In this document: positions 587-29,730 of the stretch, one piece after another | How positions within the stretch are numbered: the first letter of the stretch is position 1 | Layout of the letters: every line of letters starts with the position of its first letter | Virus record (IMG/VR): IMGVR_UViG_3300036985_004720 | Location: 1-29,730 of that record | Direction: 5' to 3' (one strand) | Length of the DNA stretch: 29,730 bases | From: a virus | Program-made: the position numbers and the translations under genes | Notes under the pieces: model-generated | Told to the model about the DNA's origin: nothing | Database searches by the model: none | What the model saw: only the letters and a program-made list of their open reading frames with translations

Positions 587-601
587 GTTATGTGATATTT
601 T
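587..601. repeat. Left arm of inverted repeat bounding the peptidase-like gene
   Basis: GTTATGTGATATTTT at 587-601 is the inverted counterpart of 994-1008 (reverse complement GTTATGTGATGTTTT), matching at 14 of 15 bases. This arm contains the stop codon of the 588-980 gene, and the other arm lies 14 nt upstream of its start. The pair therefore brackets almost exactly the gene that is absent from the sister cassette. Confidence 0.6.
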
Positions 602-980
602 TTAAAATCAATTCAAACACTTGATGGCTTTCATTTTCTGCCCAACTTATTATTTCTTCCTCTAAATTCATATTATAGTTGTGCATTTCTAATGAATGGT
701 GCATAAGTTCGTGAAACACTCCACCATAAGTTGCCTGATTAATGTCACATCGTTGTAAGTTAATAAATACAAACCTACCGTCTCCAAATTTATAATCTTT
801 GTTTTGTTTAGGAATATAATTAGCTAAACCCCAAATGTAGGCATCATTAGAATTATTTTCATATAGCATACAATTTTTGTAATTCAACCCATGCATTTCT
901 TCAACACCAAAGTGTGCAAAAATTTCACAAGAATTATTTCCGAGCAAAAGCAAATAACCATCTCTTTTTATTTCTATCAT
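588..980 (-). CDS. Small HExxH-type metallopeptidase-like protein
   Basis: The 130-residue product carries HELMH near residue 91, matching the zinc-peptidase HExxH consensus. It is followed about 15 residues later by the acidic helix EEEIISWAE, which could supply the third zinc ligand, as in gluzincin/ImmA-IrrE-like proteins. The N-terminal 80 residues are not recognised. It starts at an ATG with an A-rich leader and lacks a Shine-Dalgarno sequence. It lies between the sigma-like gene and nuclease copy A, exactly where the right-hand cassette has no gene, and is flanked by inverted repeats, so it looks like an insertion (moron). Cleavage of a host or phage regulator is a guess by analogy with ImmA. 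Zinc binding is likely, substrate unknown. Confidence 0.6.
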   Translation of the reverse strand: MIEIKRDGYLLLLGNNSCEIFAHFGVEEMHGLNYKNCMLYENNSNDAYIWGLANYIPKQNKDYKFGDGRFVFINLQRCDINQATYGGVFHELMHHSLEMHNYNMNLEEEIISWAENESHQVFELILKNIT

Positions 981-993
981 AATTTCTAAAATT

Positions 994-1008
994 AAAACAT
1001 CACATAAC
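994..1008. repeat. Right arm of inverted repeat bounding the peptidase-like gene
   Basis: AAAACATCACATAAC pairs with 587-601 in inverted orientation, one mismatch in 15. It directly abuts the AGCCTGG boundary where the left and right cassettes stop being alignable. Confidence 0.6.
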
Positions 1009-1013
1009 AGCCT

Positions 1014-1029
1014 GGATTTTTTATAGAGT
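1014..1029 (-). promoter_or_regulatory. Recurrent TCTATAAAAAATCC motif before the peptidase-like gene
   Basis: Read on the minus strand this is ACTCTATAAAAAATCC. It overlaps the stop codon of the sigma-like gene and lies about 34 nt upstream of the next start codon. Matching copies occur at 2038-2053, 2901-2912, 28692-28707 and 29717-29730, each 35-60 nt before a gene start. A promoter element for cassette genes is the simplest reading; an RNA processing site is the alternative. Confidence 0.45.
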
Positions 1030-1527
1030 ATTTTTTATATTTAATTGTTTTTTTATATTTTCTAAAGTTTTCATTACACTTCGACGAACTGAAATATAAT
1101 TAATACCGGTCTTTTCCTGTATTTTTTGATAAGTTAATTTGTCAAAGTAATACATTTCAAACAATGTCTTGTCGTACCAATGTATTCTCGTTAATATGTT
1201 TTTTACTTGATTTACGATGTCTTCTTCATCAATTGATACTTCTACTTCATACTCTGGTATATCTACCATTACATTCTCTTTGATGAGGTGTTTACGATAC
1301 CACGGTGAGCTAGTTGAATAGTATTGATTAGCAATTATACGCCAAATATAATAATCAATATATCCTTCTGCATATGATTTAACTAGTTTATCAGGTTTAT
1401 CTAGAATGTTATCTAAGATGAAACTTTTAAAATCATTTCTATGATGTGATTTTATTTTCATAAACATATTTCTAATCGTTTCACTTTCACTAAAATATAT
1501 TAGAGCTTCATTTAGAGGATTTTTCAA
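1021..1527 (-). CDS. Sigma-70/ECF-like transcription factor, copy A
   Basis: The 168-residue protein has the two-part layout of a small sigma factor. The N-terminal half ends in YIWRIIANQYYSTSSPWYRK, reminiscent of region 2 of ECF-type factors. The C-terminal 50 residues (LFEMYYFDKLTYQKIQEKTG and the helix after it) look like a region 4 helix-turn-helix. The likely role is directing host RNA polymerase to phage promoters; it could instead be a sigma-like DNA-binding adaptor. The start is TTG at 1525-1527 because there is no in-frame ATG until residue 22, and the alignment with the sister protein (28708-29199, ATG start) supports the full N-terminus. It overlaps the 1508-1873 gene by 20 nt, implying translational coupling. 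Roughly 60% of residues match the sister copy by eye. Confidence 0.6.
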   Translation of the reverse strand: MKNPLNEALIYFSESETIRNMFMKIKSHHRNDFKSFILDNILDKPDKLVKSYAEGYIDYYIWRIIANQYYSTSSPWYRKHLIKENVMVDIPEYEVEVSIDEEDIVNQVKNILTRIHWYDKTLFEMYYFDKLTYQKIQEKTGINYISVRRSVMKTLENIKKQLNIKNTL

Positions 1528-1873
1528 AAAGGTCTAGTAGATTTTTTATATTTATACAAACTTCATAAAGTTCGCCATCTTCAGCAACTACTAAATAATA
1601 ATTTAGCATTTCTTTTAGATAGTCATAGTATAGATTAAAATAGTTGTGGTTGATTTCTAATATTAAATCTAATCTATTCCATATATTATCATAGATTGAA
1701 TCTAAGAGGTCACTTGGTAGATTTTTATTACTGAATAGTGGTTCACAAGTTATAAGAGCTTGTACTCCAGTATCTATAATTAATTTATATTTTGAATCTG
1801 TGTTATTCCTAAAGAAGTAAGGAGTTACCTCAGCATCAGTCCTAAATGCTTTTCTTATTTGTGTTGTAGTCAT
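1508..1873 (-). CDS. Conserved cassette protein of unknown function, copy A (121 aa)
   Basis: The family is not recognised. The N-terminus MTTTQIRKAFRTDA and the segments VTPYFFRN and IYDNIWNRLDLILEINH are shared almost residue for residue with the 128-aa product of 29168-29554. The core is rich in Tyr, Leu and Asn and appears helical, with no signal peptide or membrane segment. It is placed between a 49-aa ORF that overlaps its 5' end and a sigma-like gene that overlaps its 3' end, and this order is kept in both cassettes. The fixed partnership suggests a role linked to the sigma-like protein, perhaps as a regulator or adaptor, but that is inference from synteny only. Confidence 0.7.
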   Translation of the reverse strand: MTTTQIRKAFRTDAEVTPYFFRNNTDSKYKLIIDTGVQALITCEPLFSNKNLPSDLLDSIYDNIWNRLDLILEINHNYFNLYYDYLKEMLNYYLVVAEDGELYEVCINIKNLLDLFEKSSK

Positions 1874-1991
1874 TTGCCATTTTTTGCTTTATAGCTTCGT
1901 TTAGAAGTAGGCGGTAGTGTTTAACAAGTTTGTGGTTATTCTTGTTTTGGGCGATTTTTAGAAGTAAATAGTTTATCATTTTATCATTCAT
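1842..1991 (-). CDS. Small conserved cassette protein, copy A (49 aa)
   Basis: An ATG at 1989-1991 opens a 49-codon frame beginning MNDKMINYLLLKIAQNKNN and ending at TAG 1842-1844, overlapping the next gene by 32 nt in another frame. The equivalent frame at 29520-29672 gives a 50-residue product beginning MNNKMINYLLLKIAENKNN. The two keep the same reading frame, start and stop despite many base changes, which argues for a real gene. It is lysine-rich and probably helical; no family is recognised. Confidence 0.65.
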   Translation of the reverse strand: MNDKMINYLLLKIAQNKNNHKLVKHYRLLLNEAIKQKMANDYNTNKKSI

Positions 1992-2037
1992 ATTTTAAGT
2001 ATATATTTGTATTGAAATATGACTTTTTTACCACTAT

Positions 2038-2053
2038 GGATTTTTTATAGAGT
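2038..2053 (-). promoter_or_regulatory. Recurrent TCTATAAAAAATCC motif and leader of cassette A
   Basis: On the minus strand ACTCTATAAAAAATCC lies about 46 nt upstream of the 1991 start codon. The spacer to the start (1992-2037) keeps AAAAAGTCATATTT and AAATATATACTTAAAA, both also present before the equivalent gene at 29672. The conserved non-coding leader in both copies suggests a cassette promoter. It overlaps the stop codon of the 2053-2445 gene. Confidence 0.5.
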
Positions 2054-2445
2054 TAATCTAAAATAAATTCAATCTTTTTATCTCTCAATATAGTCAGGAC
2101 TTCTTCAAATGAAATAGTTCCTACGGTGTCGATGTAGAAATGGTTATTATGATTATCATGTTTTAATTCACCATATTCGATAAGCTTATTAACATTATCT
2201 ATGTTGTAAATATATCTATGTTGATTACCGACTAATTGATTAATAATGTCTTGCAACTTAATCTCTGATTTTATCAATGTAAATCCATTAAGAGTTGTCT
2301 TGTATCCGTTGATTGACTTGTATATGTTTTGTGGATTCGCACCAGTAAATCTTGATGCCTCTGCAATTGATTCAACTTGTTTAACGAATTCTTTATCTTT
2401 GTAAATACTAATTTTAGTTGCGTTCCTATAATTTTTTCTAGCCAT
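2053..2445 (-). CDS. NUMOD1-like DNA-binding domain protein (130 aa)
   Basis: Residues about 10-57 read like a NUMOD1 domain, the DNA-binding module found on homing endonucleases: KISIYKDKEFVKQVESIAEA, then SRFTGANPQNIYKSINGY and LNGFTLI. The remaining 70 residues are not recognised, and no HNH or GIY-YIG catalytic motif is visible. It may be a remnant of a homing endonuclease or a small regulator that recruited the domain. It starts at ATG 2443-2445 and overlaps the end of the AP2-like gene by 8 nt, so the two are probably co-translated. The recurrent cassette motif overlaps its stop codon. Confidence 0.6.
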   Translation of the reverse strand: MARKNYRNATKISIYKDKEFVKQVESIAEASRFTGANPQNIYKSINGYKTTLNGFTLIKSEIKLQDIINQLVGNQHRYIYNIDNVNKLIEYGELKHDNHNNHFYIDTVGTISFEEVLTILRDKKIEFILD

Positions 2446-2842
2446 TATTTTCTTTTATTTTTTCTGCATATAATAAATATGCTTTGTGTGCTTCTTCAGT
2501 AGTGTCGAAATAACCTAAATAAATTGTTTTATTATTCACTTTGATAGTAGAGCGATACTTTCTGATTTTTTTATTAAACCAATATTTTATTAAAGGATTT
2601 GAATGAAAGTTATCTGATGCTTTCTGAACATTATATAATTTTTCTAAATCTCTCCACATTAAATAGAGTTGTTCTTTTGGTTTCTTAGTGTCCCACTTAC
2701 TTATTGAAATATACTTTTGAAATAAATCTATTAACTCAATAAATAATTCTTGGTCTGAAATTTGATAATTTCTTTTTTTAATTCTCTCAACGAATTCAAT
2801 TAAATCACTTCTATCCGGTTGTTCTTTTCTATGTCTTCCCAT
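2438..2842 (-). CDS. AP2-like domain protein (134 aa)
   Basis: The C-terminal 40 residues match the AP2 DNA-binding domain pattern: KYRSTIKVNNKTIYLGYFDT followed by TEEAHKAYLLYA. This is the module found in plant AP2/ERF factors and, in phages, in HNH homing endonucleases. The N-terminal about 90 residues (basic, then SDLIEFVERIKKRNY) are not recognised, and no nuclease core is visible. It directly precedes the NUMOD1-like gene with an 8-nt overlap, so the pair may be parts of a decayed or split mobile endonuclease. Sequence-specific DNA binding is likely, target unknown. Confidence 0.6.
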   Translation of the reverse strand: MGRHRKEQPDRSDLIEFVERIKKRNYQISDQELFIELIDLFQKYISISKWDTKKPKEQLYLMWRDLEKLYNVQKASDNFHSNPLIKYWFNKKIRKYRSTIKVNNKTIYLGYFDTTEEAHKAYLLYAEKIKENNG

Positions 2843-2892
2843 GTATATTATATATTAAATTGTTAAAATGGTTTATTGAATATATTATATCT

Positions 2893-3153
2893 TTATTTTA
2901 ATTTTTTATAGATGTGGTATATGTTTATCTTATCAACTAAATTACACTCATCATAAATACTTTGTAATTCATCCCAAAAGTCATCATCTCTATCTAGTTC
3001 GCAATATTGTCTATATACATCTTCAATAGATTGACCTTTGTATATAGTTTTTCTTAAAATGTAGTTGCCTTCTTTGTCTATATGAAACAATTCGCCTTTA
3101 TAGGTTGTTGAACTCATATTGTAAATTAATCGGTTTATCTTTTCAAATCTCAT
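2893..3153 (-). CDS. Hypothetical protein (86 aa), first gene of the left minus-strand run
   Basis: The protein is not recognised. It is acidic in the middle (YCELDRDDDFWDELQSIYDE) with no membrane segment. The ATG at 3151-3153 is the leftward boundary of the divergent spacer, and a 12-bp inverted repeat begins right at the start codon. A TCTATAAAAAAT motif lies at its 3' end, upstream of the 2842 gene. Its position as first gene of an outward-facing early operon would suit a host-takeover or regulatory protein, which is inference. Confidence 0.6.
   Translation of the reverse strand: MRFEKINRLIYNMSSTTYKGELFHIDKEGNYILRKTIYKGQSIEDVYRQYCELDRDDDFWDELQSIYDECNLVDKINIYHIYKKLK
2901..2912 (-). promoter_or_regulatory. 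TCTATAAAAAAT motif before the AP2-like gene
   Basis: The minus-strand TCTATAAAAAAT lies about 59 nt upstream of the 2842 start codon, inside the 3' end of the preceding gene. It is the shortest match of the five-member motif set, without the trailing CC. Confidence 0.35.
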
Positions 3154-3195
3154 AATGAATATATCTATAATTTATATTGAATAATATATTCATTA
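3153..3195. promoter_or_regulatory. 12-bp inverted repeat at the start of the leftward operon
   Basis: TAATGAATATAT (3153-3164) and ATATATTCATTA (3184-3195) are perfect inverted repeats with a 19-nt AT-rich spacer. They overlie the start and leader of the 86-aa gene. They fit an operator or an origin-proximal binding site; the AT-richness tempers confidence. Confidence 0.4.
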
Positions 3196-3448
3196 CAAGT
3201 TTTCTTCATTATTTCTTTGGCTAAGAAATACACCACTTGAAATTTAAGTAAGGTAGATAATTTATCAAATGTATTAATAGGTTAAAGTATTTGAGGAACC
3301 AATTTCATAATCTATATATCTATATATCTATATCTATATATCATTATAATCTTATTCATAAAAATAAAAAAAAGTGAATAACTTATATAAAAAGTGTGTA
3401 GGGGAGGATAACTTTTTAATATATATAATATAAAAATAAACAAAGAAT
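3154..3448. other. Divergent AT-rich intergenic region, candidate control region or origin
   Basis: No gene is supported in these 295 bases. The region separates the leftward minus-strand genes from the only plus-strand operon, which encodes the polymerase-like protein. It holds the inverted repeat at 3153-3195, a run of repeated CTATATAT units at about 3311-3343, and a G-rich patch (GTGTGTAGGGGAGGATAAC, about 3392-3410) that stands out from its surroundings. Such a layout suits bidirectional promoters or a replication origin, but nothing here proves an origin. Confidence 0.4.
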
Positions 3449-4429
3449 ATGAAAGTAAAATTACCAAAGTTAGTAAAATACAGCATAGCTGATATTGGAA
3501 ATAAAACATTACAAAAGAATGCTCTTAAAGTATATGCGTCATTATATGAAAGAAGTAAAAGAAAAAATAGTGAAGGTTATTTTGATGTTCCATCAACATA
3601 CCTTAAAGCAATAAACACAAGATATTATAAAATAATTGATAAACTTATTGAAGATGGAATACTTGATTATTTTAAAAGAGCTGTTCAAGATGATAAAGAT
3701 ATATTTACAACAAATACTAGAAAGTACTACAATAAGAATCTAGGTATATGTATGAAATATAAATTCCTAATTGATATAGAAAAAGGTGAAGAGATAGAAG
3801 TTGATATGGAATCAAATAGAGATGAGAGATGGTATAAAATAACTCATAACACATTAACAAACCTTGGATATAAAGATATTAAAATATCAAGAGATAGTTT
3901 TGGTAGAAGAGTGCATCATAACCTAACACAAACTTATAAATATGAATTAGCTGATAGAGGACTTTCAGTTATAGATGCTAAATGTTCTCAGCCAAGGTTA
4001 TTGTATATAATGATGAAAAATAGAGGAATAGTTGATGAAGTATATAATCATATATTTGAAAATGGAATTGATTTTTATAGCTATTTAATTGAAAGATTAA
4101 ATGAAACAGATAGAAAATCAGCAAAAGATTTATTTATGTATTGGTTGAATAGTGATGGTTATGTACCTAATTATAATATAAATAAACTATTCCCAGAAGC
4201 ATCGAAATTTATAAAATCATTAAAGAGTAAAAACCATAAAAATAGTGCTGCTACACTACAAAGAGAAGAGGCAAAAATATGGATAGATGGATTATTAGAA
4301 AATCTACCAGTTGAATTTGGTTTAACTATTCATGATAGTTTAATTGTTAAAGATAAAGATGTTATAAAAGTTCTTAAATATTGTAAAGAAAAGTATCCTG
4401 ATTTAGAATATGATGTTAAAGAACTTTAA
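3449..4429 (+). CDS. Compact family-A polymerase-like replication protein with N-terminal winged-helix-like region
   Basis: The C-terminal half carries a family-A polymerase palm in order. GRRVHHNLT (152-160) resembles the TGR...PNLQN segment. DAKCSQPRLL (176-185) resembles motif A, with Asp176 as metal ligand. RKSAK (222-226) resembles the R-x3-K of motif B. Q271 starts the LQREEAKI helix, and HDSLIV (295-300) is motif C with Asp296. The HDS form is also that of T7-type RNA polymerase rather than the HDE of Pol I. At 326 residues there is no exonuclease domain and little room for a thumb. Residues 1-80 (ALKVYASLYERSK, KIIDKLIEDGILDYF) look like a winged helix as in replication initiators. 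It may be an initiator, primase or polymerase for phage DNA. It heads a two-gene plus-strand operon. The family assignment is by eye from motif order. Confidence 0.6.
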   Translation: MKVKLPKLVKYSIADIGNKTLQKNALKVYASLYERSKRKNSEGYFDVPSTYLKAINTRYYKIIDKLIEDGILDYFKRAVQDDKDIFTTNTRKYYNKNLGICMKYKFLIDIEKGEEIEVDMESNRDERWYKITHNTLTNLGYKDIKISRDSFGRRVHHNLTQTYKYELADRGLSVIDAKCSQPRLLYIMMKNRGIVDEVYNHIFENGIDFYSYLIERLNETDRKSAKDLFMYWLNSDGYVPNYNINKLFPEASKFIKSLKSKNHKNSAATLQREEAKIWIDGLLENLPVEFGLTIHDSLIVKDKDVIKVLKYCKEKYPDLEYDVKEL

Positions 4430-4452: not shown

Positions 4453-4908
4453 ATGGCAGCAGAAGATTATAAAACAAAAAGAAATGGAATTGAAATGAAT
4501 ATTTCAAAAGCAGTTCGTATAGACAAAGCAAAAATAGGACAAAAGAAATTCGAAGAATTAAAATTAGAATATGATATAGAAGTAATAGAAAATAAAAATA
4601 ATATAATAAGATTTATACACGATGAACAAGAGTATTACTATGGTGTAGTATCTAGAAAAATACGAAAGGCTGGAGAAAGAGAGTGGACCACAAAAATTAG
4701 TCAAATACTATACAATAAAAACAATAACAAAGAAAAAATTAACGAATTCAAAGAAAGATTTAATTTTGGTAAATATAAAGGTAAGGAAGTAAAATGGGTT
4801 ATAGAAAATGACCCTCAATATTATAAATGGTGTTTAGATAATGTTAAAAAGTTTAAGACATCAATTCATTGGAAAGGATATACTCTAAGTAAAAAAGAAG
4901 CAAATTAA
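4453..4908 (+). CDS. ExoX-C-like (FGKYKGK) domain protein, replication operon (151 aa)
   Basis: The C-terminal part shows FGKYKGKEVKWVIENDPQYY (105-124) followed by KWCLDN. This matches the small domain found at the C-terminus of exodeoxyribonuclease X and in many phage nucleic-acid enzymes. The N-terminal 95 residues are lysine-rich (YKTKRNGIEMNISKAVRIDK) and carry no visible DEDD exonuclease motifs, so catalysis is not supported. It begins 23 nt after the polymerase-like gene and is presumably co-transcribed, suggesting an accessory role in replication such as nucleic-acid binding. Its 3' end overlaps the convergent GIY-YIG gene by 4 nt. Confidence 0.55.
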   Translation: MAAEDYKTKRNGIEMNISKAVRIDKAKIGQKKFEELKLEYDIEVIENKNNIIRFIHDEQEYYYGVVSRKIRKAGEREWTTKISQILYNKNNNKEKINEFKERFNFGKYKGKEVKWVIENDPQYYKWCLDNVKKFKTSIHWKGYTLSKKEAN

Positions 4909-21192: not shown

Positions 21193-22299
21193 TTATTTTC
21201 TTATTTTTATTAAATCACAATAGTTGGTGTCTAGTAAACCGAGACCACCACCACCACCATTTTGTATGGCTACAACTATATAACCATTTTGTGTCCAATC
21301 AATTATTACATTACTTGGACTACGTGCTAAACTACCATTTGCATTAGTACCAAAATCACTTGCGTATGCACCACCTAATTCCGTCACAGTTGTACTATTT
21401 GTTGCACTAACAATAGCAACATTTCTGGACATATACACTGAATTGGCAGTAGGAAGAACAGTTGGTGCTATACCTAATAATGCAGGTGTGCCATCAATAT
21501 CCGGAGTTACATTCCAATACACTCTAGCTATATAATTTCCATTACCAGTTGCTCCTGTTATCCTACGAACTCGCATTGAAAATTCTGGTACGTCATTTGT
21601 GGTGTAACTATTCGCTGGTACTAGTAATGCTTTTGAGAAGGTGTTGTCTGTTGATGATACGGTTGCACCATTACTTGCTGAACTTAAAGTATCATTAGGT
21701 CCTATTGGTCCTTGTGGCCCAGTTGGTCCTTGTGGCCCAGTTGGTCCTTGTGGACCAGTTGGACCTACAACACCTGATGTAATTATCTGAGTCACACCAT
21801 TTAGATTAAATGAATAGCTTGCTATATCTTGAATAGGTATAGTGCAAGGTGTATATCTAAATCCTTGCTTAAATCTTAAAGTTGTTTTATGTCCATTTAC
21901 ATTCTCATCAGTAACCTCAAAAACAGCCTCTGTATTTATATCACCATCTAATCTTAAACCAGCTGCCACATAGTATGGGTGTTGTGATATTTCAGTAATG
22001 ATTGTATGTAAAATATATAAAGTATCTGATGTTGTATCTTGATAATTATTATCACCTTTATTTATTCTATCCATCATATATACATCAAAATCATAAAACA
22101 CTTCTCTATAAGAAATACCATTACCTCTTGAAAGTGTTGAGGATGTATTCTCAATGTGTAAATAAGGCATCTTTAATTCACCTCCAGTATTGATGTCTGA
22201 AAGTGGTCCATATGAAAAAGCATTAACCATTAAATGTCTTTCAGCAACATCCCTAAAAATATCAATGATTTTATTTATACTTAAAGTATTACTCGCCAT
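21193..22299 (-). CDS. Collagen-stalk fibre with terminator-like N-domain, short paralogue (368 aa)
   Basis: Residues 1-160 form a domain almost identical to the N-terminus of the 22374-24056 protein ([32 protein letters not shown]). Its pattern, including YILHTIITEI, recalls tail-terminator or tail-completion proteins of Bacteroidota phages. A short collagen-like stretch (GPTGPQG repeats, 179-201) follows. A C-terminal beta domain (ALLVPANSYTTNDV, NVIIDWTQNGYIVVAIQNGG) is shared in a diverged form with the paralogue. The protein is probably a trimeric fibre anchored at the neck or tail. Gene duplication with separate evolution of the tip is seen directly. Confidence 0.65.
   Translation of the reverse strand: MASNTLSINKIIDIFRDVAERHLMVNAFSYGPLSDINTGGELKMPYLHIENTSSTLSRGNGISYREVFYDFDVYMMDRINKGDNNYQDTTSDTLYILHTIITEISQHPYYVAAGLRLDGDINTEAVFEVTDENVNGHKTTLRFKQGFRYTPCTIPIQDIASYSFNLNGVTQIITSGVVGPTGPQGPTGPQGPTGPQGPIGPNDTLSSASNGATVSSTDNTFSKALLVPANSYTTNDVPEFSMRVRRITGATGNGNYIARVYWNVTPDIDGTPALLGIAPTVLPTANSVYMSRNVAIVSATNSTTVTELGGAYASDFGTNANGSLARSPSNVIIDWTQNGYIVVAIQNGGGGGLGLLDTNYCDLIKIRK
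21707..21760. repeat. Three 18-bp collagen-coding repeats
   Basis: Three tandem 18-bp units (GGTCCTTGTGGCCCAGTT, twice exact, third with one change) encode the GPQGPT triplets of the short fibre. Slippage could change stalk length. Confidence 0.85.
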
Positions 22300-22373: not shown

Positions 22374-24056
22374 TTACCTTTTTATTTTAATAAATGAACT
22401 TCTAGCAGCTGCGCTATCTGCAGCAACCGTACATTGTGTTGATACTACAATATATAAATCAGCTGTCCAATTTGCTAACAATACATTGACACCAAGATTC
22501 GAACCGAGCCAATCTGTATTACTACCTCCAGTATTTGAAAATACTTCAGTTGAAGCAGTAGCAGATTTTATTGATAAAAATCTATTAAATTGAAGGTATG
22601 TTTGATTTACCGCTGCTGTTGTATTTGTAGCTACTAATATTGGAGAACCAGATATACTATTAATAGTATTTATATAAATCCTCATTGTCATATTACCAGC
22701 AGTGCCTGTTTTTCTACCACGAACCGTAACTTCAACATTATTTCCCACAGTGAAACTATTAGCTGGTACTAAAACACCACTTGTATAAACATTTGATGTG
22801 GTACCTGATGTTACAGCTCCATCGGTTGTTGTTTCATAAACATTTGATGGTCCTGTTGCTCCTTGAAAACCTTGAATTCCTTGTGGTCCTGTTGCTCCTT
22901 GAAAACCTTGAATTCCTTGTGGACCAGTTACTCCTTGAAAACCTTGGTTACCTTGTGGACCTGTTGGTCCTTGAAAACCTTGATTGCCTTGTGGACCTGT
23001 TGGTCCTTGAAAACCTTGGTTACCTTGTGGCCCTGCCACACCAATAGATAAAGGTACAAATATTATATCGTGTCCATTACTAAATGAATATCCACCAGTC
23101 ACATATGTAACTGGTATTGAAACATAATCATTAGGTATAATTGTAGGTGTTCCACTTACGGTCCATTTCTGATAGTTATTAGAATTATTTTCATCTTGTA
23201 TAACTATACTATCACCAATTGTAATCAATGCTAAAAAAACATCAATATCTACATTATCTCTAGTTAAATGGTCAACATATAATATAGTTGAGTTTATTTG
23301 TGTTGCATTATTCCACATAATTTGTTTAGCACCAGGAGGTGGTGTTTGTGAATTCGTTTTTGCATTATATTTATAGTATGATATTGATATACCATTTTGA
23401 CCTTGTGGGCCTGTTGCTCCTTGTAAACCTTGGAATCCTTGAGGACCAGTTGCGCCATTAATACCATTAGTACCTTGTGGACCTGTTGCTCCTTGAAAAC
23501 CTTGTGGACCTTGAGGTCCTGTTGCTCCTGAAACTGGTGATGTTGAGATTGAACCATTCAGACTAAAAGTCCATCCTGGTATCTCGTCTATTGGAATGGT
23601 ACAAGGTGTAAATCTAAATCCTTGCTTAAATCTTAAAGTCGCTCTGTGACCATTTACATTTTCATCAGTCGCTTCAAATACAGATTCAGTAGTTACATCA
23701 TCTATAAGTTTTAAACCAGCAGCCACATAATATGGATGTTGGTCTATTTCAGAAATGATTGTATGTAATATGTAAAGTGTATCACTTGTTGTGTCTTGAT
23801 AGTTTGAATCACCTTTATTTATTCTATCCATTACATACACATCAAAGTTGTAATATACTTCTCTATAATCTATTCCTGTTCCTCTTGAAAGTGTTGAGGA
23901 TGTATTTTCAATATGTAAGTAAGGCATTTTTAATTCACCTTGAGTGTTTATATCAGATAAAGGACCATATGAAAAAGCATTAATCATCATATGTCTATTT
24001 GCTATATCATTAAACATTTCGATTAATCTATTGATTGATATTGTATCACTTGCCAT
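22374..24056 (-). CDS. Collagen-stalk fibre with terminator-like N-domain, long paralogue (560 aa)
   Basis: The order is: N-terminal domain (1-160, near-identical to the short paralogue), collagen-like segment I (177-222, [12 protein letters not shown] type), a non-repetitive domain (223-340), collagen-like segment II (341-403, five 12-residue units of [12 protein letters not shown] type) and a C-terminal beta domain (404-560) that is related to but clearly diverged from the short paralogue. It follows the frameshifted tail chaperone within a few bases. The N-domain position next to the chaperone suits a terminator or neck protein carrying a fibre. The Gly-X-Y runs imply a trimer. Confidence 0.65.
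22855..23034. repeat. Five 36-bp tandem repeats encoding the second collagen stalk
   Basis: Five consecutive units of exactly 36 bp share the core CTTGAAAACCTTG and differ at a few positions. They encode 12-residue collagen units. The exact periodicity favours copy-number change by slippage or recombination. Confidence 0.9.
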
Positions 24057-27970: not shown

Positions 27971-28636
27971 TTAATTAAAGTCGAACGGCTCATCGTATTT
28001 TTTCATAGTGTCTGAAACATAAGAAATAGTGTTATCAGTAAATTTATCAATACCGAATTCTTCTGGAATTTCTACCTCGTATGTTTCTAATTTACCACCT
28101 GATTTTAAGAACTCAGCTTCAAATTCAGATGATGGTATAACATACATTAAGGCGAAATCTTTATCGCCACCATATCTTAAATATTCTGACCATTTTGTAT
28201 CTGATTCAAACATCTCAATTAATCTTTCTCTTTTAATGATATAAACTTGGTCTTTTAATCTTCTTGGAAAAAAGTATATAAAGTAGTCAGCAGATGAACC
28301 AAATACACCAGATGGTTGTTTTTTATACTTTTTCTCAATGACTACATTACCAGTATTCATAAATTTATCTGTTTTTATTTCAAATGTCACCGACTTTTTT
28401 GGACTTATATTTCCGTTTTCATATAGTCCAAATTTTAAGTCGTATGATTTTAGAATAGATTTTCTTTCACTAAATGATTTATTATTTGCTTGATAACCTG
28501 AATCATACCAGTAAGCTAACTTATGATTTACTAATTTTTCATTAAAATATTTTTCTATAAAAGGAATCAATGTATATTCACCCCATTTTCCAAATTCCTC
28601 ATCTTTTGTAAACTTCTGATTGTTGTGTGTTTTCAT
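27971..28636 (-). CDS. PD-(D/E)XK nuclease-like protein, copy B (221 aa)
   Basis: This is the complete version of the gene cut by the left window edge. Catalytic elements are Glu20 in KWGE, Asp66 in SYDLKFG and Glu86/Lys88 in FEIKTD, followed by GVFGSSADYFIYFFP (110-124), as in PD-(D/E)XK resolvase- and restriction-type cores. The C-terminal 70 residues (EVEIPEEFGIDKF and on) are acidic and not recognised. It follows the sigma-like gene after a 71-nt leader containing the recurrent motif and a small hairpin. A role in phage recombination, DNA processing or host DNA breakdown is possible; the target is unknown. Confidence 0.75.
   Translation of the reverse strand: MKTHNNQKFTKDEEFGKWGEYTLIPFIEKYFNEKLVNHKLAYWYDSGYQANNKSFSERKSILKSYDLKFGLYENGNISPKKSVTFEIKTDKFMNTGNVVIEKKYKKQPSGVFGSSADYFIYFFPRRLKDQVYIIKRERLIEMFESDTKWSEYLRYGGDKDFALMYVIPSSEFEAEFLKSGGKLETYEVEIPEEFGIDKFTDNTISYVSDTMKKYDEPFDFN
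28365..28484. repeat. 120-bp perfect repeat within nuclease copy B
   Basis: Identical base for base to 168-287. See the left copy. Confidence 0.9.
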
Positions 28637-28640
28637 AATT

Positions 28641-28659
28641 TATATCTTTTTTAGATATA
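28641..28659 (-). promoter_or_regulatory. Short hairpin in the leader of nuclease copy B
   Basis: A 7-bp TATATCT/AGATATA stem with a T5 loop, 4 nt upstream of the start codon, equivalent to 446-463. Confidence 0.45.
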
Positions 28660-28691
28660 TATTATGTTAAAAATACAACTTTTAAAAGCCT

Positions 28692-28707
28692 GGATTTTTT
28701 ATAGAGT
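28692..28707 (-). promoter_or_regulatory. Recurrent TCTATAAAAAATCC motif before nuclease copy B
   Basis: The minus-strand ACTCTATAAAAAATCC directly follows the sigma-like stop codon and lies 55 nt upstream of the nuclease start. The adjoining AGGCT is shared with the left copy. Confidence 0.45.
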
Positions 28708-29199
28708 TTATTTTATATTTAATTGTTTTTTTACATCTTCTAATGTTTTTGTCACTGCTCTTCTTACAGCTGTATATCCTATTCCTGTTTTTATTTGTAT
28801 TTCTTGATATGTCATTTTATCAAAATAATACATCTCGAATAGTTTTCGATTGAACCAATGGGTTCTTCTTAATATATCTTTTACTTTTTGTATTATTACA
28901 TCTTCTTGTATTGAGTCATCTTCCTCTATAATTTCAGGAATATCAATCATTGTATAGTCTTTAATTAAGTGTTTTCTATACCACGGACTTGTAGTTGAGA
29001 AGTATTGATTAGCAATTATTCGCCAAATAAAGAAGTCAATCCAACCACCTTCATATGCTTTAATTAGTTTTTCATCATTATCTAAAAGTATATCAAGTAT
29101 AAAAGATTTAAATTCACTTCTATCTTTTGATTTGATTTTTAGAAACATATTTTTTATTGTATCACTATTATTGAAATAGAGTAGAGCTTGATTTATCAT
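28708..29199 (-). CDS. Sigma-70/ECF-like transcription factor, copy B (163 aa)
   Basis: This paralogue of the 1021-1527 product starts at ATG 29197-29199 and begins MINQALLYFNNSDTIKNMFL. It keeps WIDFFIWRIIANQYFSTTSP in the region 2-like half and LFEMYYFDKMTYQEIQIKTG plus a basic recognition helix in the region 4-like C-terminus. Linker residues between the halves differ most (acidic EEDDSIQED here). Two divergent copies in one phage could recognise different promoters. It overlaps the 128-aa gene by 32 nt. Sigma activity is inferred from layout only. Confidence 0.6.
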   Translation of the reverse strand: MINQALLYFNNSDTIKNMFLKIKSKDRSEFKSFILDILLDNDEKLIKAYEGGWIDFFIWRIIANQYFSTTSPWYRKHLIKDYTMIDIPEIIEEDDSIQEDVIIQKVKDILRRTHWFNRKLFEMYYFDKMTYQEIQIKTGIGYTAVRRAVTKTLEDVKKQLNIK

Positions 29200-29554
29200 A
29201 ACTGTTAAAGAGTTGTATTAATTCACGTAAATTTATACATGCATCATACTGCTCATTGTCTTCACATATTTTTAGATAGAAATCTAACATTTCTAGTAGG
29301 TAATCATAATATAGATTAAAATATCTATGGTTTATGTCAAGAATTAAATCTAATCTATTCCATACATTATCATAAATGGATTGGATTAAATCATTACTTA
29401 TTTTTTTACTAAATACTGGTTCACAAGATAACATTGCTTGTTTTCCTGTGTCAATTATTAAGTTAAGTGCTGGGTCATAGTTGTGGCGAAAAAAGTACGG
29501 TGTTGTACTAGCATCTTGATTATATGCTTTCCTTATTTGTGCTGTTGTGGTCAT
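29168..29554 (-). CDS. Conserved cassette protein of unknown function, copy B (128 aa)
   Basis: Paralogue of the 1508-1873 product. It shares MTTTAQIRKAYNQDASTTPY, SIYDNVWNRLDLILDINHRY and FNLYYDYLLEML. It has seven more residues at the C-terminus because its reading frame runs further into the sigma-like gene. No family is recognised and no membrane segment is present. Order and overlaps match the left cassette. Confidence 0.7.
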   Translation of the reverse strand: MTTTAQIRKAYNQDASTTPYFFRHNYDPALNLIIDTGKQAMLSCEPVFSKKISNDLIQSIYDNVWNRLDLILDINHRYFNLYYDYLLEMLDFYLKICEDNEQYDACINLRELIQLFNSYDKSSSTLFQ

Positions 29555-29672
29555 GATTTAATTTTAATTTTATTGCCTCATTTAATAACATCCAATAGAA
29601 TCTAAAAAGTTCTGGATTATTCTTATTCTCAGCGATTTTTAAAAGCAAATAGTTTATCATTTTATTATTCAT
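29520..29672 (-). CDS. Small conserved cassette protein, copy B (50 aa)
   Basis: ATG 29670-29672 opens a 50-codon frame starting MNNKMINYLLLKIAENKNNP and ending at TAA 29520-29522. It overlaps the next gene by 35 nt. It matches the 49-aa left copy in start, length and N-terminal sequence, with diverged middle residues, which supports coding. Confidence 0.65.
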   Translation of the reverse strand: MNNKMINYLLLKIAENKNNPELFRFYWMLLNEAIKLKLNHDHNSTNKESI

Positions 29673-29730
29673 TTTTAAGTATATATTTACTTTAAAATAT
29701 GACTTTTTTTTGCTATGGATTTTTTATACA
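29673..29730 (-). promoter_or_regulatory. Leader of cassette B with recurrent motif at the window edge
   Basis: The motif TGTATAAAAAATCC lies at 29717-29730 (one base off the consensus), then AAAAAAGTCATATTT and AAATATATACTTAAAA before the ATG, as in the leader at 1992-2053. The preservation of these blocks in both copies suggests a promoter. Confidence 0.45.

Follow-up and report, generated by a model that had tools for sequence, protein, structure and literature searches.

Genes and features at the locus

The window, meaning the whole stretch of DNA analysed, is a tailed phage record of 29,730 bp that encodes a terminase large subunit (PF03237, 6e-18) and a portal protein (PF04860, 3e-11). 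Here we describe P0001, the product of an open reading frame with an ATG start at 3449-4429. This gene and the one that follows it are:

3449-4429, plus strand: gene for a mini family-A polymerase and putative replication initiator, 326 aa (from the ORF, the model, PDB matches and conservation)
4453-4908, plus strand: downstream, co-directional gene P0002, 151 aa, with an ExoX-like C-terminal domain (PF20600, E = 8.7e-12)

P0002 contains the ExoX-like C-terminal domain without an exonuclease domain, and is not kept beside the polymerase gene in relatives. Beyond it, all genes to the contig end lie on the minus strand. Minus-strand genes also occupy 588-3153, upstream of the polymerase gene, so that the AT-rich intergenic stretch 3154-3448 lies between divergent genes.

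Among the small minus-strand genes beside the polymerase gene, one encodes an AP2-domain HNH-type fragment (2438-2842, E = 7e-7) and another a sigma region-4-like protein (1021-1527, E = 2e-4). The window ends carry two pairs of diverged direct copies (1-506 and 28198-28699, 91.7%; 960-2049 and 28644-29728, 71.5%), which represent either a tandem duplication of the nuclease-like gene, the sigma-like gene and a third gene, or an assembly joining two strains. Elsewhere in the window, two adjacent paralogous genes with collagen-like repeats (21193-22299 and 22374-24056) probably encode fibre or head-decoration proteins.

Homologues and selection

Searches of Pfam, NCBIfam and, by sequence, the PDB with the window protein gave nothing usable (a Pfam match to Glyco_hydro_59 at 0.013 was dismissed as chance), and a direct tblastn search of annotated phage and plasmid records gave no match. 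Homologous loci are present in scanned viral contigs (24) and genome contigs (2), mostly with 48-65% identity, and their sources include a Flavobacterium genome and a Bacteroidetes MAG. The family occurs in tailed phages of Bacteroidota (~31 kb) and in integrase-linked elements. The window protein and its 26 homologues were aligned (alignment A2, 27 rows, one of them truncated). Synonymous divergence far exceeds nonsynonymous divergence in all pairs tried (e.g. dN 0.10 and dS 1.36 for L014/L015; dN 0.26 and dS 1.13 for the window and L013), and the ORF is therefore a real gene under purifying selection.

Fold and domain layout

An AlphaFold2 model built from alignment A2 (mean pLDDT 88.0, pTM 0.60) gives the protein a winged-helix N-terminal domain and a palm-like core:

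3449-3739, plus strand: predicted winged-helix N-terminal domain, residues 1-97 (helices 19-36, 49-55 and 59-68 in the model)

The beta wing (72-92) is made of strands 72-74, 76-80 and 88-92. Weak matches of this region are to DNA-binding and replication families, namely phrog_25401 (DNA binding protein) for the window protein and phrog_270 (replication initiation protein) for the N-terminus of the homologue L026. The sole helix between the wing and the palm (127-138) lies at the thumb position, and the two-helix antiparallel thumb was not found in the model. The exonuclease domain is absent, and the thumb almost so.

The best 35 matches of the model in a Foldseek search of the PDB are all family-A DNA polymerases, the best of them at E = 1e-3 (probability 1.00), with modest TM-scores of 0.31-0.41 of the query. 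Against models of viral proteins the best matches reach 4e-14, one of them titled 'Putative DNA polymerase I'. Other matches are to the Zamilon virophage replication protein (E = 5.5e-4), a Qinghai Lake virophage protein, and a barbavirus 'DNA polymerase'. The latter is divPolA2, a thumb-less, divergent form of PolA found in barbaviruses, in ICP1-like phages and in other tailed phages, whose role was left unassigned (PMC11348598). The initial annotation had described a miniature family-A polymerase joined to a winged helix, lacking the exonuclease domain and with reduced thumb and fingers, and had proposed structure prediction and comparison with Pol I as a check. A palm fold is indeed predicted, and structure, sequence profiles and conservation agree in supporting the view that the window protein is a reduced family-A polymerase core joined to a winged helix, as modelled.

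Catalytic motifs

The palm and fingers carry the following segments, with counts over those rows of A2 that reach the columns:

3890-3919, plus strand: GR segment RDSFGRRVHH, residues 148-157, with the predicted template-strand Arg (R148 and R154, 27/27)
3971-3994, plus strand: motif A, IDAKCSQP, residues 175-182, with the catalytic-type Asp176 at the end of strand 172-177 (D176 and S180-Q181-P182, 27/27)
4112-4150, plus strand: motif B or O-helix, residues 222-234, R222-x3-K226 (R and K, 26/26)
4259-4288, plus strand: helix segment LQREEAKIWID preceding motif C, residues 271-280 (E274 and D280, 26/26)
4331-4339, plus strand: motif C, H295-D296-S297, in hairpin 292-301 (HD, 26/26; Ser, 12/26)

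In the model, D176 closes its strand and D296 lies in the turn of its hairpin, a palm-like placement, while R222 and K226 are borne on helix 222-234. The counterparts of the TGR segment, motif A, R-x3-K and motif C noted from the single sequence are thus real and constrained, being invariant in A2. By ungapped alignment, Q181 would fall at the sugar-gate position (E710) of Pol I.

The absence of Tyr-Gly from motif B was also correctly noted and is family-wide. In the window family, M230 and N234 replace the Phe and Tyr of the O-helix, and position 234 is Asn in 23 of the 27 rows. The O-helix Phe and Tyr-Gly are a motif of canonical Pol I, and not of the whole family-A superfamily. Since larger relatives retain F/Y at these positions (see below), the absence looks like a derived loss. 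The HDS form of motif C had been taken as a hint of T7-type RNA polymerases, a suggestion that does not hold up: position 297 varies (Ser in 12 rows, Cys in 10 and Ala in 4, of 26), so that HDS is no particular sign of kinship with T7 RNA polymerase, and Tyr-Gly is missing from motif B.

A wider clan of larger relatives

A remote row of A2, L027 (516 aa), opened the way to a clan of 387-686 aa proteins in which motif A reads D-x-x-NSQP (DxxNSQP). Its members are found in 595-735 kb megaphages, a Hymenobacter plasmid and five further Bacteroidota genomes (of 395 searched). No Pfam or NCBIfam name was found for the NSQP clan, so that naming it would give an identity to many proteins listed as 'hypothetical' in megaphages, plasmids and Bacteroidota genomes. 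In profile-profile comparison the window family matches the clan with 99.8% probability (E = 1.6e-28) over columns 42-317, which include the winged helix, and the clan matches divPolA2 with 96.9% (E = 1.7e-10), covering motifs A to C with A and C in register. The direct match of the window family to divPolA2 (85.7%) covers the C-terminal 70 columns only. Sequence profiles gave no significant match to Pol I (hhalign probabilities of 0.3 and 2.2), and one of these two alignments orders motifs A to C alike. Single clan members match RNA_pol (0.018) and the RNA polymerase family phrog_2051 (7e-4).

The model of clan member L052 (pLDDT 75) matches Pol I at 2e-8 and has 140 PDB matches at E <= 0.001. 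It contains long helices (118-142, 154-175 and 201-229) that are absent from the window family, and its O-helix retains F331 and Y335 at the helix positions of M230 and N234 in the window protein. From these helices and the retained F/Y it follows that the window family is a reduced form, in which the thumb is nearly gone and the O-helix altered, with the catalytic residues retained.

Two clan loci have further features. The longest clan ORF (L050:553-2613, from a Bacteroidota genome) carries in-frame C-terminal GIY-YIG/NUMOD homing-endonuclease domains, and in the 595-kb megaphage LR756511 (L031:5434-7880) the NSQP mini-polymerase gene is followed, with a 4 bp overlap, by a gene for an apparently normal family-A polymerase domain.

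Repeats in front of the polymerase gene

The 8-mer CTCACTTT occurs within 300 bp upstream of the polymerase gene in 14 of 23 loci (19 copies), compared with 7 copies in 317 kb elsewhere, a 119-fold upstream enrichment. Applied to twelve other gene families from these phages, this test yielded no enrichment above 40-fold and no more than 6 loci. The shorter CACTTT is present in the last 250 bp upstream in 18 of the 23 loci, with at least two copies in 11, and is absent in 5. The window contains:

3370-3382, minus strand: iteron-like copy 1, GTTATTCACTTTT
3390-3401, minus strand: iteron-like copy 2, CTACACACTTTT, 20 bp from copy 1
3335-3363, plus strand: conserved stretch TATATATCATTATAATCTTATTCAT, with a putative weaker, degenerate inverted copy at 3351-3363 (by eye, against relatives)

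Repeats adjoining the initiator's own gene and a winged-helix domain are traits of iteron-type initiators, and both are present in the window family. The upstream repeats fit a role as iterons or as operator sites for the winged helix, perhaps both. GC skew was discarded as an origin marker, with no inflection at the repeat site in the two complete genomes (G001 and G002) and a skew in the window that tracks gene direction.

The same repeats would be promoters if the protein were a small single-subunit RNA polymerase transcribing the phage genes. The shared palm superfamily, the D-x-x-C-S spacing of motif A as in T7 RNA polymerase and the RNA polymerase matches of single clan members (above) all point that way, and the authors who described divPolA2 left an RNA polymerase role open for it (PMC11348598). 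However, a phage transcriptase needs promoters at other genes, and the repeat stands upstream of the polymerase gene only; motif B lacks Tyr-Gly, the Ser of HDS is variable, the PDB matches are to DNA rather than RNA polymerases, and sigma-like genes are present in these phages. We regard a transcriptase as very improbable.

Replication genes in related phages

Two relatives have terminal direct repeats, G001 (32,484 bp; 136 bp repeats, 99%) and G002 (30,899 bp; 122 bp repeats, 100%), and therefore look like complete genomes of ~31-32 kb. Their ORFs encode virion proteins, a DNA methylase, sigma-like proteins and small unknowns, together with a metallophosphatase in G001. In neither genome was a replicative helicase, a primase, an SSB or another polymerase recognised, and, apart from the terminase, no ORF with a helicase-like Walker-A motif was seen. 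Across related contigs, DnaB_C was found in none of 19, while DNA_pol_A, SSB families and SF3 helicases above the cut-off were found in none of 18. Small unknown genes could hide other replication factors.

No conserved downstream partner gene was seen beside the polymerase gene in relatives. P0002 was considered as an SSB partner of the kind found in CcPol-MP and rejected, given its ExoX-like domain and its absence beside the gene in relatives. A candidate helicase in G014/G015 was also rejected, as the sub-threshold DUF5906 matches lie in an ORF that reads as ParB plus an ABC-type ATPase.

In some loci the polymerase gene is linked to integration genes. It stands near an integrase gene in L019, and after an integrase and small HTH-type genes in the Bacteroidetes MAG locus L029 (4919-8282; order integrase, HTH-like, 50-aa genes, then polymerase). 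The HTH-like and 50-aa genes are shared with a Flavobacterium chromosomal locus that also carries the polymerase gene (L028:4521-10972). The gene order in L029 and L019 is one that we take to resemble that of phage satellites, and the L028 and L029 loci are possibly satellites using this initiator.

Gene content also bears on whether the protein might be an accessory polymerase for repair or gap filling, extending primers already in place, with the winged helix as a regulatory or thumb-substitute domain. There is precedent in isolated CcPol, which without MP only extends primers (PMC10061031), and in divPolA2, for which a repair role was proposed as a possibility (PMC11348598); the altered O-helix suggests low fidelity. 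Against this, the gene is the sole recognisable replication gene in complete small genomes, the upstream repeats are conserved, and linked repair genes are absent. An accessory role is, in our assessment, unlikely.

Proposed mechanism

As no other recognisable replication gene is present in these phages, the window protein probably starts the copying of the phage genome. The reading we favour, at a probability of about 0.6, is that of a replication initiator that binds the origin and synthesises a primer for itself, after which the host replisome takes over. It builds on the computed fold class, the invariant active-site residues, the signature of purifying selection, the motif in front of the gene and the absence, in related complete genomes, of other recognisable replication genes, and goes beyond them in having the winged helix bind the repeats, the repeats serve as origin, and synthesis begin de novo. 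In the first step, the winged helix would bind CTCACTTT-type sites upstream of its own gene, which would constitute the origin and perhaps an operator as well. The AT-rich stretch at the repeats would then open, and the palm and fingers would synthesise a short primer or the first stretch of DNA, with D176 and D296 predicted to bind metal, R148/R154 to contact the template, and R222/K226 to contact the nucleotide. Host helicase and replicase would take over after the primer.

A self-contained initiator-primase or initiator-polymerase had been raised as a possibility in the initial annotation. Genomic context supports it, through the lack of another recognised replication gene in two apparently complete relatives and through the iteron-like motif, while synthesis is a proposal. 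That one ~326-residue protein both recognises the origin and makes the first primer, without a phage helicase or SSB partner, is a tentative claim, which we place a little short of even odds.

Several observations weigh against the favoured reading: the modest TM-scores, the non-significant sequence profiles against Pol I, the 5 loci without a CACTTT copy, the missing GC-skew inflection, and the lack of a conserved partner like the SSB that CcPol requires. Moreover, without a thumb and without Tyr-Gly on its O-helix, the protein could have weak or no polymerisation activity. Together with the absence of an SSB partner, these losses would suit an initiator whose polymerase core binds or unwinds DNA without synthesis, the primer being made by the host primase; many initiators have no polymerase activity. 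Yet neither the two catalytic Asp residues nor R-x3-K nor the template Arg varies among deeply diverged homologues, a constancy difficult to account for if the core were not catalytic, and a non-synthesising core seems to us quite unlikely.

Significance

Almost every primase known so far is a member of the DnaG or AEP family. CcPol-MP, an A-family primase, is a recent exception and requires a second protein (PMC7581432, PMC10061031). If the favoured reading is true, the fusion of a family-A core to an origin-binding domain would represent a third primase design. It would illustrate how small a part of Pol I suffices to start a strand, and explain how a group of ~31-kb Bacteroidota phages is copied without another recognisable replication gene. 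On the more tentative claim of one protein acting without a phage helicase or SSB partner, it would be a self-contained initiator-primase on a family-A scaffold, one of the smallest polymerases of that family, and would by itself make up the replication module of these tailed phages and of integrase-linked elements in Bacteroidota.

Comparison with known systems

The PolA-SSB primases offer a precedent for priming by an A-family catalytic core in mobile elements. CcPol-MP starts DNA strands de novo (PMC7581432), CcPol of SCC elements requires its SSB partner for priming (PMC7581432, PMC10061031), and PolA-SSB pairs are widespread in Bacillota (PMC10061031). In these primases the exonuclease domain is retained in part or in full, and an OB-fold SSB and a helicase accompany them; no such feature is seen here.

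T7-like single-subunit RNA polymerases share with the window protein the palm superfamily and the D-x-x-C-S spacing of motif A, whereas the window protein lacks the motif B Tyr-Gly and a conserved Ser after HD, and is about a third of their length.

The TV-Pol group, defined in 2008, comprises minimal family-A polymerases from transposons and viruses, for which a role as prim-pols was proposed (PMC2579912). The window protein resembles them in its minimal family-A core without a nuclease, its occurrence in mobile elements and viruses, its two Asp residues, template-strand (hairpin) Arg and RxxxK, but lacks the two-helix thumb, the linked D5 helicase and the all-helical N-terminal domain. Ma-LMM01 is reported to carry a TV-Pol; with this phage as a yardstick, profiles gave no significant match, and its gp030 is TV-Pol-like by eye.

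Like the window protein, divPolA2 occurs in tailed phages and has a family-A palm with no exonuclease and no canonical thumb. It is about 430 aa long with an unrelated N-terminal domain, whereas the window protein is shorter and has a winged helix. In addition, divPolA2 is encoded alongside a regular polymerase, in phages of at least 80 kb, while the window family is the sole recognisable replication gene of ~31-kb phages. The expectation that such a protein would be unusual for a tailed phage is therefore weakened by the presence of this related mini-PolA in tailed phages (PMC11348598), and stands insofar as divPolA2 sits beside a regular polymerase.

On this reading, the window protein would work like a TV-Pol primase, yet it misses two defining features of TV-Pols (the thumb, and the D5 helicase or helical N-terminus) and one of divPolA2 (occurrence in addition to a regular polymerase). 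We set it among the family-A mini-polymerases. What is new is the winged-helix fusion, the near-total loss of the thumb, the altered O-helix and the iteron-like repeats, in a gene that is the sole recognisable replication gene of complete tailed-phage genomes.
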